Positions 30,406 to 33,253 of a stretch of 64,000 nucleotides of DNA are shown here, one piece after another. Positions within the stretch are counted from its first letter, which is position 1. Each line of letters starts with the position of its first letter. The translations under genes and the position numbers were made by a program. The notes beneath the pieces were generated by a model that searched no databases, was not told where the DNA came from, and worked only from the letters and a program-made list of their open reading frames with translations. The stretch is from assembly GCF_900113135.1 (NCBI RefSeq), contig NZ_FOOH01000001.1, forward strand, positions 62,001 through 126,000. Direction: 5' to 3'. This DNA is from Salegentibacter agarivorans. GTDB lineage: Bacteria; Bacteroidota; Bacteroidia; Flavobacteriales; Flavobacteriaceae.

Positions 30406-31800
30406 TTATATATCTTCAGCGATATCCAATGCCTTGGTTAATGCCCCTAGTTTATTGTAAACCTCCTGTAATTCGTTTTCTTCTACAGACTCTGAAACCA
30501 CGCCTGCGCCGGCTTGATAATGCAATTGGTGATCTTTACTTACAAAAGATCTAATAATAATCGCGTGGTTAAAATTTCCGTGGAAATCCATAAAGCCAAT
30601 AGCACCTCCATAGGCATCACGATTTACATTTTCGTATATCTCTATGAGTTTCATCGCGCTATGTTTTGGGGCACCGCTTAAAGTTCCCGCCGGGAAAGTA
30701 TCGGCTACCACCTGCATTGTAGGCGTTTTAGGGTCTTTGGTGCCGGTTACTTTGCTTACCAAATGTATGACGTGAGAGAAAAACTGAATTTCTCTATATT
30801 TTTCAACCTTCACATTACTTCCGTGTCGGCTTAAGTCGTTACGAGCCAGATCAACCAACATCACGTGTTCAGCATTTTCTTTTTCGTCGGCGGCTAGTTT
30901 TTTGGCTAGTTCAGCGTCTTCTTCATCGTTTCCGGTACGTTTAAAAGTTCCGGCTATAGGATGGATTTCTGCCTGCCCATCCTGAACAACCAATTGTGCT
31001 TCAGGGGAACTTCCGAAGATTTTAAAGTTTCCATAATCAAAATAGAAAAGGTAGGGTGAAGGGTTTACGCTACGTAAAGCCCGATAAACATTAAATTCAT
31101 CTCCCTTAAACTTCTGAGAAAACCTACGCGACAGTACAATTTGAAAAACGTCACCACGATAGCAGTGCTTTTTTCCCAGTCGTACATTTTCCCTGAATTC
31201 TTCGTCTGTAAGGTTTGAAATTGGTTCCTGCTGACGTTCAAAATTATAAGTCGCGAAATTTTTGACTTTTATCAGTTGCTCGATTTCAGCGATCTTTGAA
31301 TCGGTATCGTAACTGTGATCAAAAATATAAGCTTCATTATTAAAATGATTTATAGCGATAATATTTTGATAAACTGCGTAATAAATATCCGGAAGTTTAA
31401 GATCACCATTTCGCTTTTTAATCTCTAAATCTTCAAAATACCGAACTCCATCATAAGCGATATAGCCAAAAAGACCGTTGTTGATAAATTTAAAATCAGA
31501 ATCTTCAGTTTCGAATTGCTTTGAAAATTCCTGGATTTGTTGCGGTACGTTAACTCCAGGAGTGATCTCTGTTACTTTTTTGCTTCCGTCAGGAAAAACT
31601 TCGGTAATCACTTCGTTTTGAATCTTAATAGAAGCGATAGGATTGCAGCATATATACGAGAAACTATTATCGTTGGCATGATAGTCACTACTTTCCAGTA
31701 GGAGACTGTTAGGATATTTGTCCCGAACTTTTAAATAAACACTTACCGGTGTAATGGTATCGGCAAGAAGTTTTTTATAGGTGGTCTTTAGTTGATACAT
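30406..31800 (-). CDS. trpE: anthranilate synthase component I
   Basis: It makes anthranilate from chorismate with TrpG-derived ammonia; the committed step and the usual point of feedback inhibition by tryptophan. It has 464 residues. The N-terminal regulatory part contains LLLESSDYHANDNSFSYIC, where the LLES element binds tryptophan in relatives. The catalytic domain has RRFSQKFKGDEFNVYRALR, IAGTFKRTG, DLARNDLSRHG and the final GAGVVSESVEENELQEVYNK. It is first in the operon, 120 bases after the leader peptide. Confidence 0.97.
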   Translation of the reverse strand: MYQLKTTYKKLLADTITPVSVYLKVRDKYPNSLLLESSDYHANDNSFSYICCNPIASIKIQNEVITEVFPDGSKKVTEITPGVNVPQQIQEFSKQFETEDSDFKFINNGLFGYIAYDGVRYFEDLEIKKRNGDLKLPDIYYAVYQNIIAINHFNNEAYIFDHSYDTDSKIAEIEQLIKVKNFATYNFERQQEPISNLTDEEFRENVRLGKKHCYRGDVFQIVLSRRFSQKFKGDEFNVYRALRSVNPSPYLFYFDYGNFKIFGSSPEAQLVVQDGQAEIHPIAGTFKRTGNDEEDAELAKKLAADEKENAEHVMLVDLARNDLSRHGSNVKVEKYREIQFFSHVIHLVSKVTGTKDPKTPTMQVVADTFPAGTLSGAPKHSAMKLIEIYENVNRDAYGGAIGFMDFHGNFNHAIIIRSFVSKDHQLHYQAGAGVVSESVEENELQEVYNKLGALTKALDIAEDI

Positions 31801-31862: not shown

Positions 31863-31890
31863 AAAAGGCTTGTCGTGAGACAAGCCTTTT
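31863..31890 (-). terminator. trp attenuator terminator
   Basis: AAAAGGCTTGTC and GACAAGCCTTTT form a 12-bp stem with a GTGA/TCAC loop and end in a T-run on the minus strand. It lies 29 bases after the leader stop and 62 bases before the trpE ATG. The segment 31872-31878 (loop plus part of one arm) is complementary to 31920-31926 at the end of the leader peptide gene, so a competing antiterminator pairing is possible. Confidence 0.88.
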
Positions 31891-31919
31891 GTATGAGATT
31901 ATACTATAGCGATGTTACT

Positions 31920-31976
31920 TCACGACGTTTGACGTAAATTTTTCCACCACCAGGTATTTGTTGTAATTGTTTTCAT
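31920..31976 (-). CDS. trpL: trp operon leader peptide with three consecutive Trp codons
   Basis: ATG at 31976 to TGA at 31920 encodes 18 residues, MKTITTNTWWWKNLRQTS. Three adjacent TGG codons (31944-31952) are the hallmark of a tryptophan-sensing leader. The last codons contain GTCGTGA, which can pair with TCACGAC in the downstream terminator. If the ribosome stalls on the Trp codons when charged tRNA-Trp is low, that segment is free to form the antiterminator and the operon is read. If translation finishes, the ribosome covers it and the terminator forms. The peptide itself needs no function. Confidence 0.9.
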   Translation of the reverse strand: MKTITTNTWWWKNLRQTS

Positions 31977-32014
31977 AAAATATAATAAATGCCAATTATT
32001 GGCTTTCATTGCTT

Positions 32015-32044
32015 CAAAGATAGAAAGCTCTTTTAAATAAACAA
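32015..32044 (-). promoter_or_regulatory. trp operon promoter
   Basis: On the minus strand TTG (32044-32042), a spacer of exactly 19 bases, and TATCTTTG (32022-32015) match the flavobacterial consensus TTG-N19-TAnnTTTG fully. It is the best promoter match I found in the window. The leader ATG follows 38 bases later. Confidence 0.85.
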
Positions 32045-32115: not shown

Positions 32116-32616
32116 TTAGAATTTCAACTCAATATTTAAATCGAAATTATCGTAAATCGTTTGATCTCCAAGTCCGCTAAAAAAGCTACCGGAATTGTAT
32201 TTCACATTGTATTTAGAACGGTCTATACTCAATTTAGTAGTCGCAGTATTTCCGTTTTTATCCAAATCGAAAGTTACCGGATGGGTGTTTTCTTTAATAG
32301 TAAGATCTCCAACCACACCATATGTGCCATCGTCTTTTTTAGCTACGCTGGTAATTACCAGTTTTGATGTTGGATGATTATCTACTCCAAAGAAATCATC
32401 TGAATTTAAGTGACCTTCCAAACCTGCTTTATCGTCTCCTTTAAGATCGGTTACGGTAATTGTGGTCATATCCATTACAAATTCACCTCCTGTAATTTCG
32501 TCATTTTCCAATGTTAATTTACCTTCTTTAAGATCTATAGTTCCTGAGTGTGATCCTAAAACTTTTTTTCCTTTCCAGGCGATATTACTAGCCTGGGTAT
32601 TGATTTGTTTTTCCAT
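32116..32616 (-). CDS. YceI family protein without signal peptide
   Basis: A 166-residue protein of the YceI lipocalin-like beta-barrel family, which binds isoprenoid lipids such as quinones in solved members. Conserved blocks are IAWKGKKVLGSHSGTIDLKEGKL, TDLKGDDKAGLEGHLNSDDFFGVDNHPTSKLVITSV, and SIDRSKYNVKYNSGSFF near the end. It starts at MEKQINTQ with no export signal, so unlike its neighbour it should be cytoplasmic. The two are close paralogues separated by 58 bases. Confidence 0.88.
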   Translation of the reverse strand: MEKQINTQASNIAWKGKKVLGSHSGTIDLKEGKLTLENDEITGGEFVMDMTTITVTDLKGDDKAGLEGHLNSDDFFGVDNHPTSKLVITSVAKKDDGTYGVVGDLTIKENTHPVTFDLDKNGNTATTKLSIDRSKYNVKYNSGSFFSGLGDQTIYDNFDLNIELKF

Positions 32617-32674
32617 AATAATTATTAATTTTTCTTTTTCAATTTTCTTTATAGCAATTAATTTCCCTTTAGAA

Positions 32675-33253
32675 TTAGAATTTTAATTCTACCTCAAGTT
32701 CAAAATTATCGTAGATGGTTTGGTCACCAAGGTTATCAAAGAAACTCCCTGAACCATAACGAACATCGTATTTAGAACGGTCTATAGTTAGCTCTGTAGA
32801 AGCTGAATTATCTTCCCAATCTAAATCGAACGTCACGGGATTCGTTTTATCTTTAATAGTAAGATTGGCTACCACCCCGTAAGTTCCATTGCTCTTTTTA
32901 GCAACGCTTGTAATAACCAGTTTTGAAGTTGGATGGTTTTTTACTCCAAAGAAGTCATCAGATTTTAAGTGACCTTCTAATTTTCCTTTATCTTCACCAG
33001 TAAGATCGGTAACGGTGATAGAGCTCATGTCTATTACGAATTCCCCTCCGGTAAGTTCACCATTTTCCATAGTAAAATGTCCGTTTTTAAGGTCTATGGT
33101 TCCGTAGTGAGAGCCGGTTACTTTTTCACCTTCCCAGTTAATGTTGCTTTCTTTTACATCAATTTTTTTATCCTGAGCATTCACTGTTGTAAACGATAAA
33201 AATGATACAAGAAATGCAGATGCAAATACAGTTTTTAAAAGATTCTTTTTCAT
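32675..33253 (-). CDS. YceI family protein, exported
   Basis: A 192-residue protein with a Sec signal peptide (about 1-26, ending VNA) followed by a YceI domain nearly identical in its key blocks to the downstream copy (NWEGEKVTGSHYGTIDL, LEGHLKSDDFFGVKNHPTSKL, TIDRSKYDVRYGSGSFFDNLGDQ). It should be periplasmic. Tandem duplication followed by loss or gain of the signal is the simplest explanation for the pair. It lies in an operon with a MarR regulator and a nitroreductase. Confidence 0.9.
   Translation of the reverse strand: MKKNLLKTVFASAFLVSFLSFTTVNAQDKKIDVKESNINWEGEKVTGSHYGTIDLKNGHFTMENGELTGGEFVIDMSSITVTDLTGEDKGKLEGHLKSDDFFGVKNHPTSKLVITSVAKKSNGTYGVVANLTIKDKTNPVTFDLDWEDNSASTELTIDRSKYDVRYGSGSFFDNLGDQTIYDNFELEVELKF

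Follow-up and report, generated by a model that had tools for sequence, protein, structure and literature searches.

The locus lies on the minus strand of a 64,000-nucleotide stretch of Salegentibacter agarivorans DNA (the window), where a putative attenuator sits upstream of a complete tryptophan biosynthesis operon, trpEGDCFBA; trpE occupies 30406-31800 and is followed by trpG, trpD, trpC, trpF, trpB and trpA down to 24475 (identities by Pfam). The closest relatives of its TrpE come from Salegentibacter, Zunongwangia and Gillisia, the S. salarius protein being 98% identical. On the other side, upstream of the operon, 32116-33253 holds two adjacent similar genes: the nearer (32116-32616) has a YceI domain, and the second resembles it by sequence.

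Read in the direction of transcription, the leader opens with a promoter that consists of a -33 element, TTG (32042-32044), and, after a 19-nt spacer, a -7 element, TATCTTTG (32015-32022), which fits the TAHHTTTG consensus (PMC6847099); from this box and the published spacing we predict a transcription start at 32009-32010, 0-1 nt upstream of a first ATG (ATG1, 32009-32007). An 18-codon leader peptide ORF, MKTITTNTWWWKNLRQTS, follows at 31920-31976 (ATG2 at 31976-31974, TGA at 31922-31920) and contains three consecutive TGG codons (31944-31952). Between this ORF and trpE stands an intrinsic terminator, identified as a sequence pattern (31890-31863; 12 bp with a 4-nt loop), whose 5' arm (31879-31890) is also drawn by RNAalifold and whose 3' arm (31863-31874) leads into a T run that goes on to 31860, about 60 nt before the trpE start at 31800. 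Ten terminator-like sites occur in 4 kb, compared with 2.7 expected, and that of the leader is one of the two longest. Segment A, GTCGTGA (31926-31920), overlaps the stop codon and is the exact reverse complement of segment B, TCACGAC (31878-31872), which comprises the terminator loop and the initial 3 nt of the 3' arm; complementarity, covariation and spacing mark A as the proposed antiterminator strand. A further segment, P (31931-31938), could pair with A absent a ribosome and thus act as a 1:2 protector. An earlier note made from the sequence had described the promoter, the leader ORF, the three TGG codons, the A:B match and the terminator, and its coordinates were borne out base for base.

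The only Rfam family to exceed its gathering cut-off in the window was RF01692 (Bacteroid-trp), which matched at 31879-31996 on the minus strand (69.6 bits vs. a cut-off of 49, full model 1-131; E 1.3e-6 over the whole window); because no other family reached its gathering score there, the element is not assigned to the T-box RNAs. Weinberg et al. (2010; PMC2864571) listed Bacteroid-trp among candidate cis-regulatory RNAs of Bacteroidetes, and the family has been noted upstream of the trp operon of Flavobacterium psychrophilum (PMC6414381), and the element in the window likewise lies before trp biosynthesis genes in a member of the Bacteroidota. At E up to 0.001, all 15 genomes of the genus have an RF01692 match (14 above the cut-off), as do 208 of 299 genomes of the family (184 above the cut-off), 27 of 395 in the class sample and 30 of 296 in the phylum sample; the last three scans used stricter filters than the genus scan and so lost weak matches. 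Only one of 14 control genomes, a Bacteroides, had a match.

Leaders in relatives were collected with a script that required a terminator and a pair of Trp codons no more than one codon apart, and that returned a leader at 196 of 205 loci (none at L116, L133, L173, L177, L178, L179, L181, L190 and L202). Since the script itself demands both features, we judged their conservation only from 80 loci picked by TrpE alone. Loss of the Trp codons was looked for among these, and 79 of the 80 have a terminator and a leader ORF in which two or more Trp codons are adjacent, the sole miss being L116, whose contig extends only 165 nt ahead of trpE. Most leaders carry WWW, and some WW or WWH. Among the first 124 loci the terminator is nearly invariant (GGCUUGUC, a 4-7 nt loop ending in CAC, then GACAAGCC), and opposite it an equally conserved UCGUGA lies near the end of the leader ORF. 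Dropping identical strings reduced the 196 leaders to 183, many of them still close relatives, and 167 of these bear the motif (the other 16 are excluded from the following counts): in 163 of them the A core follows the last Trp codon by 17-22 nt, while over all 167 it falls into the three reading frames 143, 16 and 8 times, and the stop codon may lie within, after or before the motif. Because its spacing is fixed but its frame is not, what is conserved is the RNA rather than the peptide. Conservation of A for the sake of the peptide was thus ruled out, as the same RNA motif occurs in all three frames and sometimes past the stop codon; the idea that the motif is a mere copy of the terminator 5' arm was also rejected, as in Flavobacteriaceae the two share only GUC.

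The promoter is likewise kept, with a TTG 17-22 nt upstream of the -7 box in 156 of 196 leaders (commonest spacing 19) and the box itself absent, by the pattern used, in 16 of 196. Many start sites of F. johnsoniae lie 4 or 5 nt past the -7 box (PMC6847099). Of the 196 leaders, 62 have an in-frame ATG exactly 5 nt after the box, 56 of these among the 123 leaders of the first set (counts that include close relatives), so in several genera we predict a leaderless ORF or one preceded by a single 5' nucleotide; leaderless mRNAs in general are a minority both in F. johnsoniae (PMC6847099) and in F. psychrophilum (5.5%; PMC9723704). In the window, ATG1 at 32009 is in frame, lies 5 nt past the -7 box and fits the predicted start, from which it would open an alternative, leaderless ORF of 29 codons (31920-32009) with a fourth Trp codon. 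A 33-nt clade-specific insertion separates ATG1 from the start at 31976 and contains a small hairpin, read off the sequences as GCCAA-TAA-TTGGC (31991-32003); ATG2, the start common to the insertion-bearing relatives, lies ~34 nt downstream of the predicted transcription start. In relatives the insertion measures 31-33 nt; it carries a GCC...GGC hairpin, is present in 6 of 15 genomes of the genus, and shows, by eye, seemingly compensatory changes in that hairpin. Across these six genomes the upstream ATG is in frame in two, replaced by ATA in two and out of frame in two; since the ATG or the frame is lost in four of six, we take 31976 to be the better-supported start here, and the comparison suggests that a leaderless start may be ancestral to this leader. 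There is no Shine-Dalgarno site at the leader, and the question raised in the earlier note, how initiation proceeds without one, is answered in part by the near-leaderless start predicted for many relatives.

Covariation in related genomes was examined with the A and B segments of the 183 leaders aligned independently of each other, and the two segments covary. Pair 6 is G-C in 141 leaders, A-U in 26, G-U in 6 and something else in 10 (one U-A), and pair 1 is unformed in 67 of 183. The 59 distinct A/B combinations had 88.6% of cells paired at pairs 2-7, compared with a mean of 84.8% and a maximum of 87.5% when B was dealt among the sequences (1000 deals) and with at most 51% when it was slid. 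For 64 of 73 representatives 89.5% of cells were paired, which is a figure for chosen sequences, as those left out (L140, L141, L142, L143, L148, L163, L198, L199 and L205) mostly have no clear A:B pairing; in these 64, both partners vary at five pairs, a count reached by 1 of 500 shuffles, and the covariation score (0.272) lay above all 500 shuffles and all slides. Because relatedness inflates such numbers, A:B was also examined inside f57 and f33, two further families of the class, where 34 of 41 loci have a leader and pair 6 was A-U in 26, G-C in 5 and G-U in 3, with zero mismatches and a Watson-Crick count equalled by 1 of 5000 shuffles. In the first set (L001-L124) pair 6 is invariant (G-C in 112 of 112), so the core there carries no covariation signal either way. 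One locus, L201, has a wholly different yet complementary A:B pair, GUUGGUUC:GAACCGAC. RNAalifold run on the alignment returned only the terminator, which is expected of mutually exclusive folds.

A terminator so nearly invariant is conserved far beyond the needs of hairpin function, and this would be explained if the short attenuated RNA acted additionally in trans as a small RNA, for which Sinorhizobium rnTrpL offers a precedent (PMC7298713). We consider such a role unlikely, as the double pairing in cis accounts for the invariance and A and B change together; it would, moreover, be an addition to the cis model and not an alternative to it.

Which terminator arm is contested was assessed in the 183 leaders by comparing the best duplex formed by the stretch from the last Trp codon to the terminator with that of 100 dinucleotide shuffles of the same stretch, against two targets. 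Target (i) joined the final 5 loop nucleotides to 5 nt of the 3' arm; target (ii) comprised 8 nt from the top of the 5' arm and 2 loop nucleotides. Complementarity to the loop and 3' arm was far above chance (median z -3.36), with at most 2 of 100 shuffles as good in 138 of 183 leaders and 45 falling short of that mark. Complementarity to the 5' arm was at chance (median z +0.22) and reached the same mark in only 4 of 183 leaders, namely L143, L145 and L146, which have clear 5'-arm complementarity instead of A:B, and L141, where it is weaker; L163 looks ordinary on inspection, its match lying further into the arm, at a level not above chance (22 of 100 shuffles). The his leader of the genus gave the opposite outcome: in all 15 genomes none of 100 shuffles matched its 5'-arm pairing, and its loop and 3' arm lay mostly at chance (4 and 8 of 100 shuffles in two genomes, 44-90 elsewhere). 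This test used mononucleotide shuffles, and the 15 close relatives are in effect one case. The approach is thus able to detect the ordinary geometry, and the trp leader is without it.

The his leader of the window's genome (L214; G000 contig 32, before hisG) reads MKNFQLDHHHIYYCAQAR, with one His codon of the run replaced by Asp; across the genus the peptide is mostly QLHHHH. Its 5'-arm antiterminator is CGCUCAGGCGAGGU, and no Rfam family matched it at gathering. Further amino-acid leaders of the genus were screened for an A:B-like geometry: among 8 thr loci no terminator passed the threshold, and among 9 ilv loci 3 had one. One of these three, L234, lies before ilvD in a genome of the genus; here a short Ile/Val-rich ORF, MQRINKNSNTSIIVEIIFPLGI, stands ahead of the terminator and is a possible ilv leader.

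Described trp attenuators as a rule have an antiterminator that captures the 5' arm of the terminator, and an ordinary E. coli-like geometry of this kind, in which the A:B match would be secondary, has counterparts in the his leader of the genus and in the four leaders named above (more weakly in L141), with L163 added by eye only. For the trp leader we consider it quite unlikely, since in 179 of 183 leaders, that of the window included, more than 2 of 100 shuffles did as well on the 5' arm, with a median z of +0.2. The element does share with the E. coli type a short ORF that contains consecutive cognate codons and precedes a biosynthetic operon, and pairing of its antiterminator with the terminator 5' arm was not found. 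More distant leaders (L143, L145, L146, L163 and L198-L200) either have an ordinary-looking 5'-arm geometry, which stands out in the shuffle test only for L143, L145 and L146, or have a CACAAAG...CTTTGTG-like hairpin that replaces A:B, and given these the geometry may have switched during evolution. In the open-access literature, as far as its texts were accessible, no leader attenuator with an antiterminator directed at the loop and 3' arm is described apart from the poly-U model for S. aureus; this is weak evidence of absence.

Equilibrium folds (not kinetics) were computed for fragments of the window RNA as they would emerge from the polymerase. A ribosome footprint was assumed for these folds, and the stall boundaries used (31936 and 31930) are ~3 nt off the later Trp-codon coordinates, which leaves A unaffected. 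With a ribosome on the Trp codons, the probability of A:B was 0.97-1.0 with RNA out to 31874-31870 and still 0.81-0.96 at 31868, and the terminator won by the next point, 31866. With a ribosome at the stop codon the terminator alone forms; with no ribosome (RNA from 32001 on) an upstream hairpin holds A and the terminator forms, A:B being at 0.27 at 31872 and dropping to 0.05 at 31870. The no-ribosome fold forms a hairpin over the Rfam protector stretch (Trp codons plus stop), for which the Rfam alignment marks several non-standard pairs, and the 1:2 pairing (P:A) has moderate support. Early in emergence the leader side pairs with B in 110 of 112 first-set leaders and in 47 of 71 others; once the full 3' arm is out, this pairing leads in 0 of 112 and 1 of 71, respectively. 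As the full terminator beats A:B at equilibrium, the model requires kinetic timing. The polymerase conceals roughly the last 10-14 nt of RNA, so the interval in which A:B prevails would coincide with the polymerase at the T run. The earlier note had been concerned that an antiterminator of only 7 bp might not suffice; the pairing is indeed short everywhere, and the concern is eased by its target, the loop and first 3'-arm bases, and answered in part by the folds of emerging RNA, in which A:B dominates until the terminator can close.

The same bases could instead be read as a pseudoknot, in which A would pair with the terminator loop and strengthen the terminator, so that stalling would lower expression. 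The 6-nt loops of many relatives could pair in this way by 4 bases with the stem unopened; however, the conserved pairing takes in stem bases, hence the stem would have to open, the geometry would be cramped with 4-nt loops such as that of the window, and a biosynthetic operon would be switched off while its product is scarce, all of which makes a pseudoknot very unlikely. That a DNA-binding repressor or TRAP-like protein controls the operon, with the leader incidental, is scarcely credible: the small inverted repeat near the start (32003-31991) that could serve as its site is limited to some Salegentibacter, RF01692 is the only Rfam family over cut-off in the window, and the Trp codons and the switch are conserved across families.

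We regard the parts, the family membership and the A:B complementarity as firm, and ribosome-controlled attenuation with A:B as the antiterminator as the likely reading of them; more specifically, we put the probability that this is a leader-peptide transcription attenuator that senses charged tRNA-Trp and uses A:B (loop plus top of the 3' arm) as its antiterminator at a little over three in four (0.77). The ribosome-stalling reading proposed in the earlier note is well supported on sequence grounds by the relatives, which keep the Trp codons, terminator, A:B complementarity and promoter. As predicted from these parts, RNA ends, ribosome positions, timing and response to tryptophan would be as follows. 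Transcription would begin just past the -7 box, and a ribosome would start on the short leader. When Trp-tRNA is scarce, the ribosome would stall at the WWW codons and leave segment A free, the core of which starts 18 nt beyond the Trp codons; with the polymerase at the T run, A would pair with B, the loop and upper 3' arm just then emerging, and this pairing would keep the terminator from zipping up, such that trpE would be transcribed. When Trp-tRNA is ample, the ribosome would reach the stop codon in or near A and cover A, and the terminator would form; if there were no translation, the upstream segment would hold A (1:2 pairing) and the terminator would form as well. In six relatives (L128, L165, L172, L175, L187 and L196) the leader ORF extends 23-32 nt beyond A, which would be left uncovered by a ribosome at the stop, and in L038 and L161 the stop codon lies far upstream of A.

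Beyond this locus, we find it somewhat more probable than not that most RF01692 trp attenuators in Bacteroidota belong to a 2:4 (not 2:3) class with a race at the termination site, and that the ancestral flavobacterial leader peptide was leaderless, read from the 5' end. If true, the antiterminator could not form before the polymerase has arrived at the T run, which would place the decision at the termination site itself. Such a geometry departs from the textbook rule on which arm an antiterminator must take, and attenuator-finding tools that rely on 5'-arm competition would miss the 2:4 class. It also bears on leader-peptide initiation, where timing matters, in a phylum without Shine-Dalgarno sites. 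In the accessible portions of prior texts the function of the 2010 candidate family is merely inferred, and a covariation-backed switch names the exact bases; the family itself is already published, and it is the switching geometry that seems to be new.

In the Yanofsky-type trp attenuator of E. coli, it is the 5' arm of the terminator (segment 3) that segment 2 pairs with. Like it, the element in the window has Trp codons, a stop codon and a terminator in order, and stalling would pick between two folds; unlike it, the antiterminator segment here would take the loop and the top of the 3' arm, and no Shine-Dalgarno site is present. By score the element belongs to the same sequence family as Bacteroid-trp (PMC2864571), the Rfam model of which ends at the terminator 5' arm and therefore, unlike the full element here, is without segment B. 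Leaderless or near-leaderless leader peptides have precedents (PMC7298713, PMC11857589). In Sinorhizobium meliloti trpL/rnTrpL the ATG of the Trp leader lies at the RNA 5' end, which is comparable with the leaderless start predicted here, although the phylum is different and trans functions have been shown there (PMC7298713). Corynebacterium glutamicum ilvBNC is likewise a small leader switch, with its start codon one nt from the transcript start, and differs in that a shared trinucleotide (76-78) lies in the 5' base of the terminator, so that the 5' arm is contested (PMC11857589). Closer by descent, leader-peptide attenuation of amino-acid operons has been suggested from the transcriptome of F. 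psychrophilum, a member of the same bacterial family (PMC9723704), and the accessible text of the two reports on that species does not give the geometry of the antiterminator (PMC9723704, PMC6414381). A likeness in geometry is found in Staphylococcus aureus ilv, where the predicted antiterminator, as here, spares the 5' arm and pairs on the 3' side, with the poly-U stretch; there the terminator stem is left intact, whereas here the loop and the top of the stem would be taken (PMC5794164).
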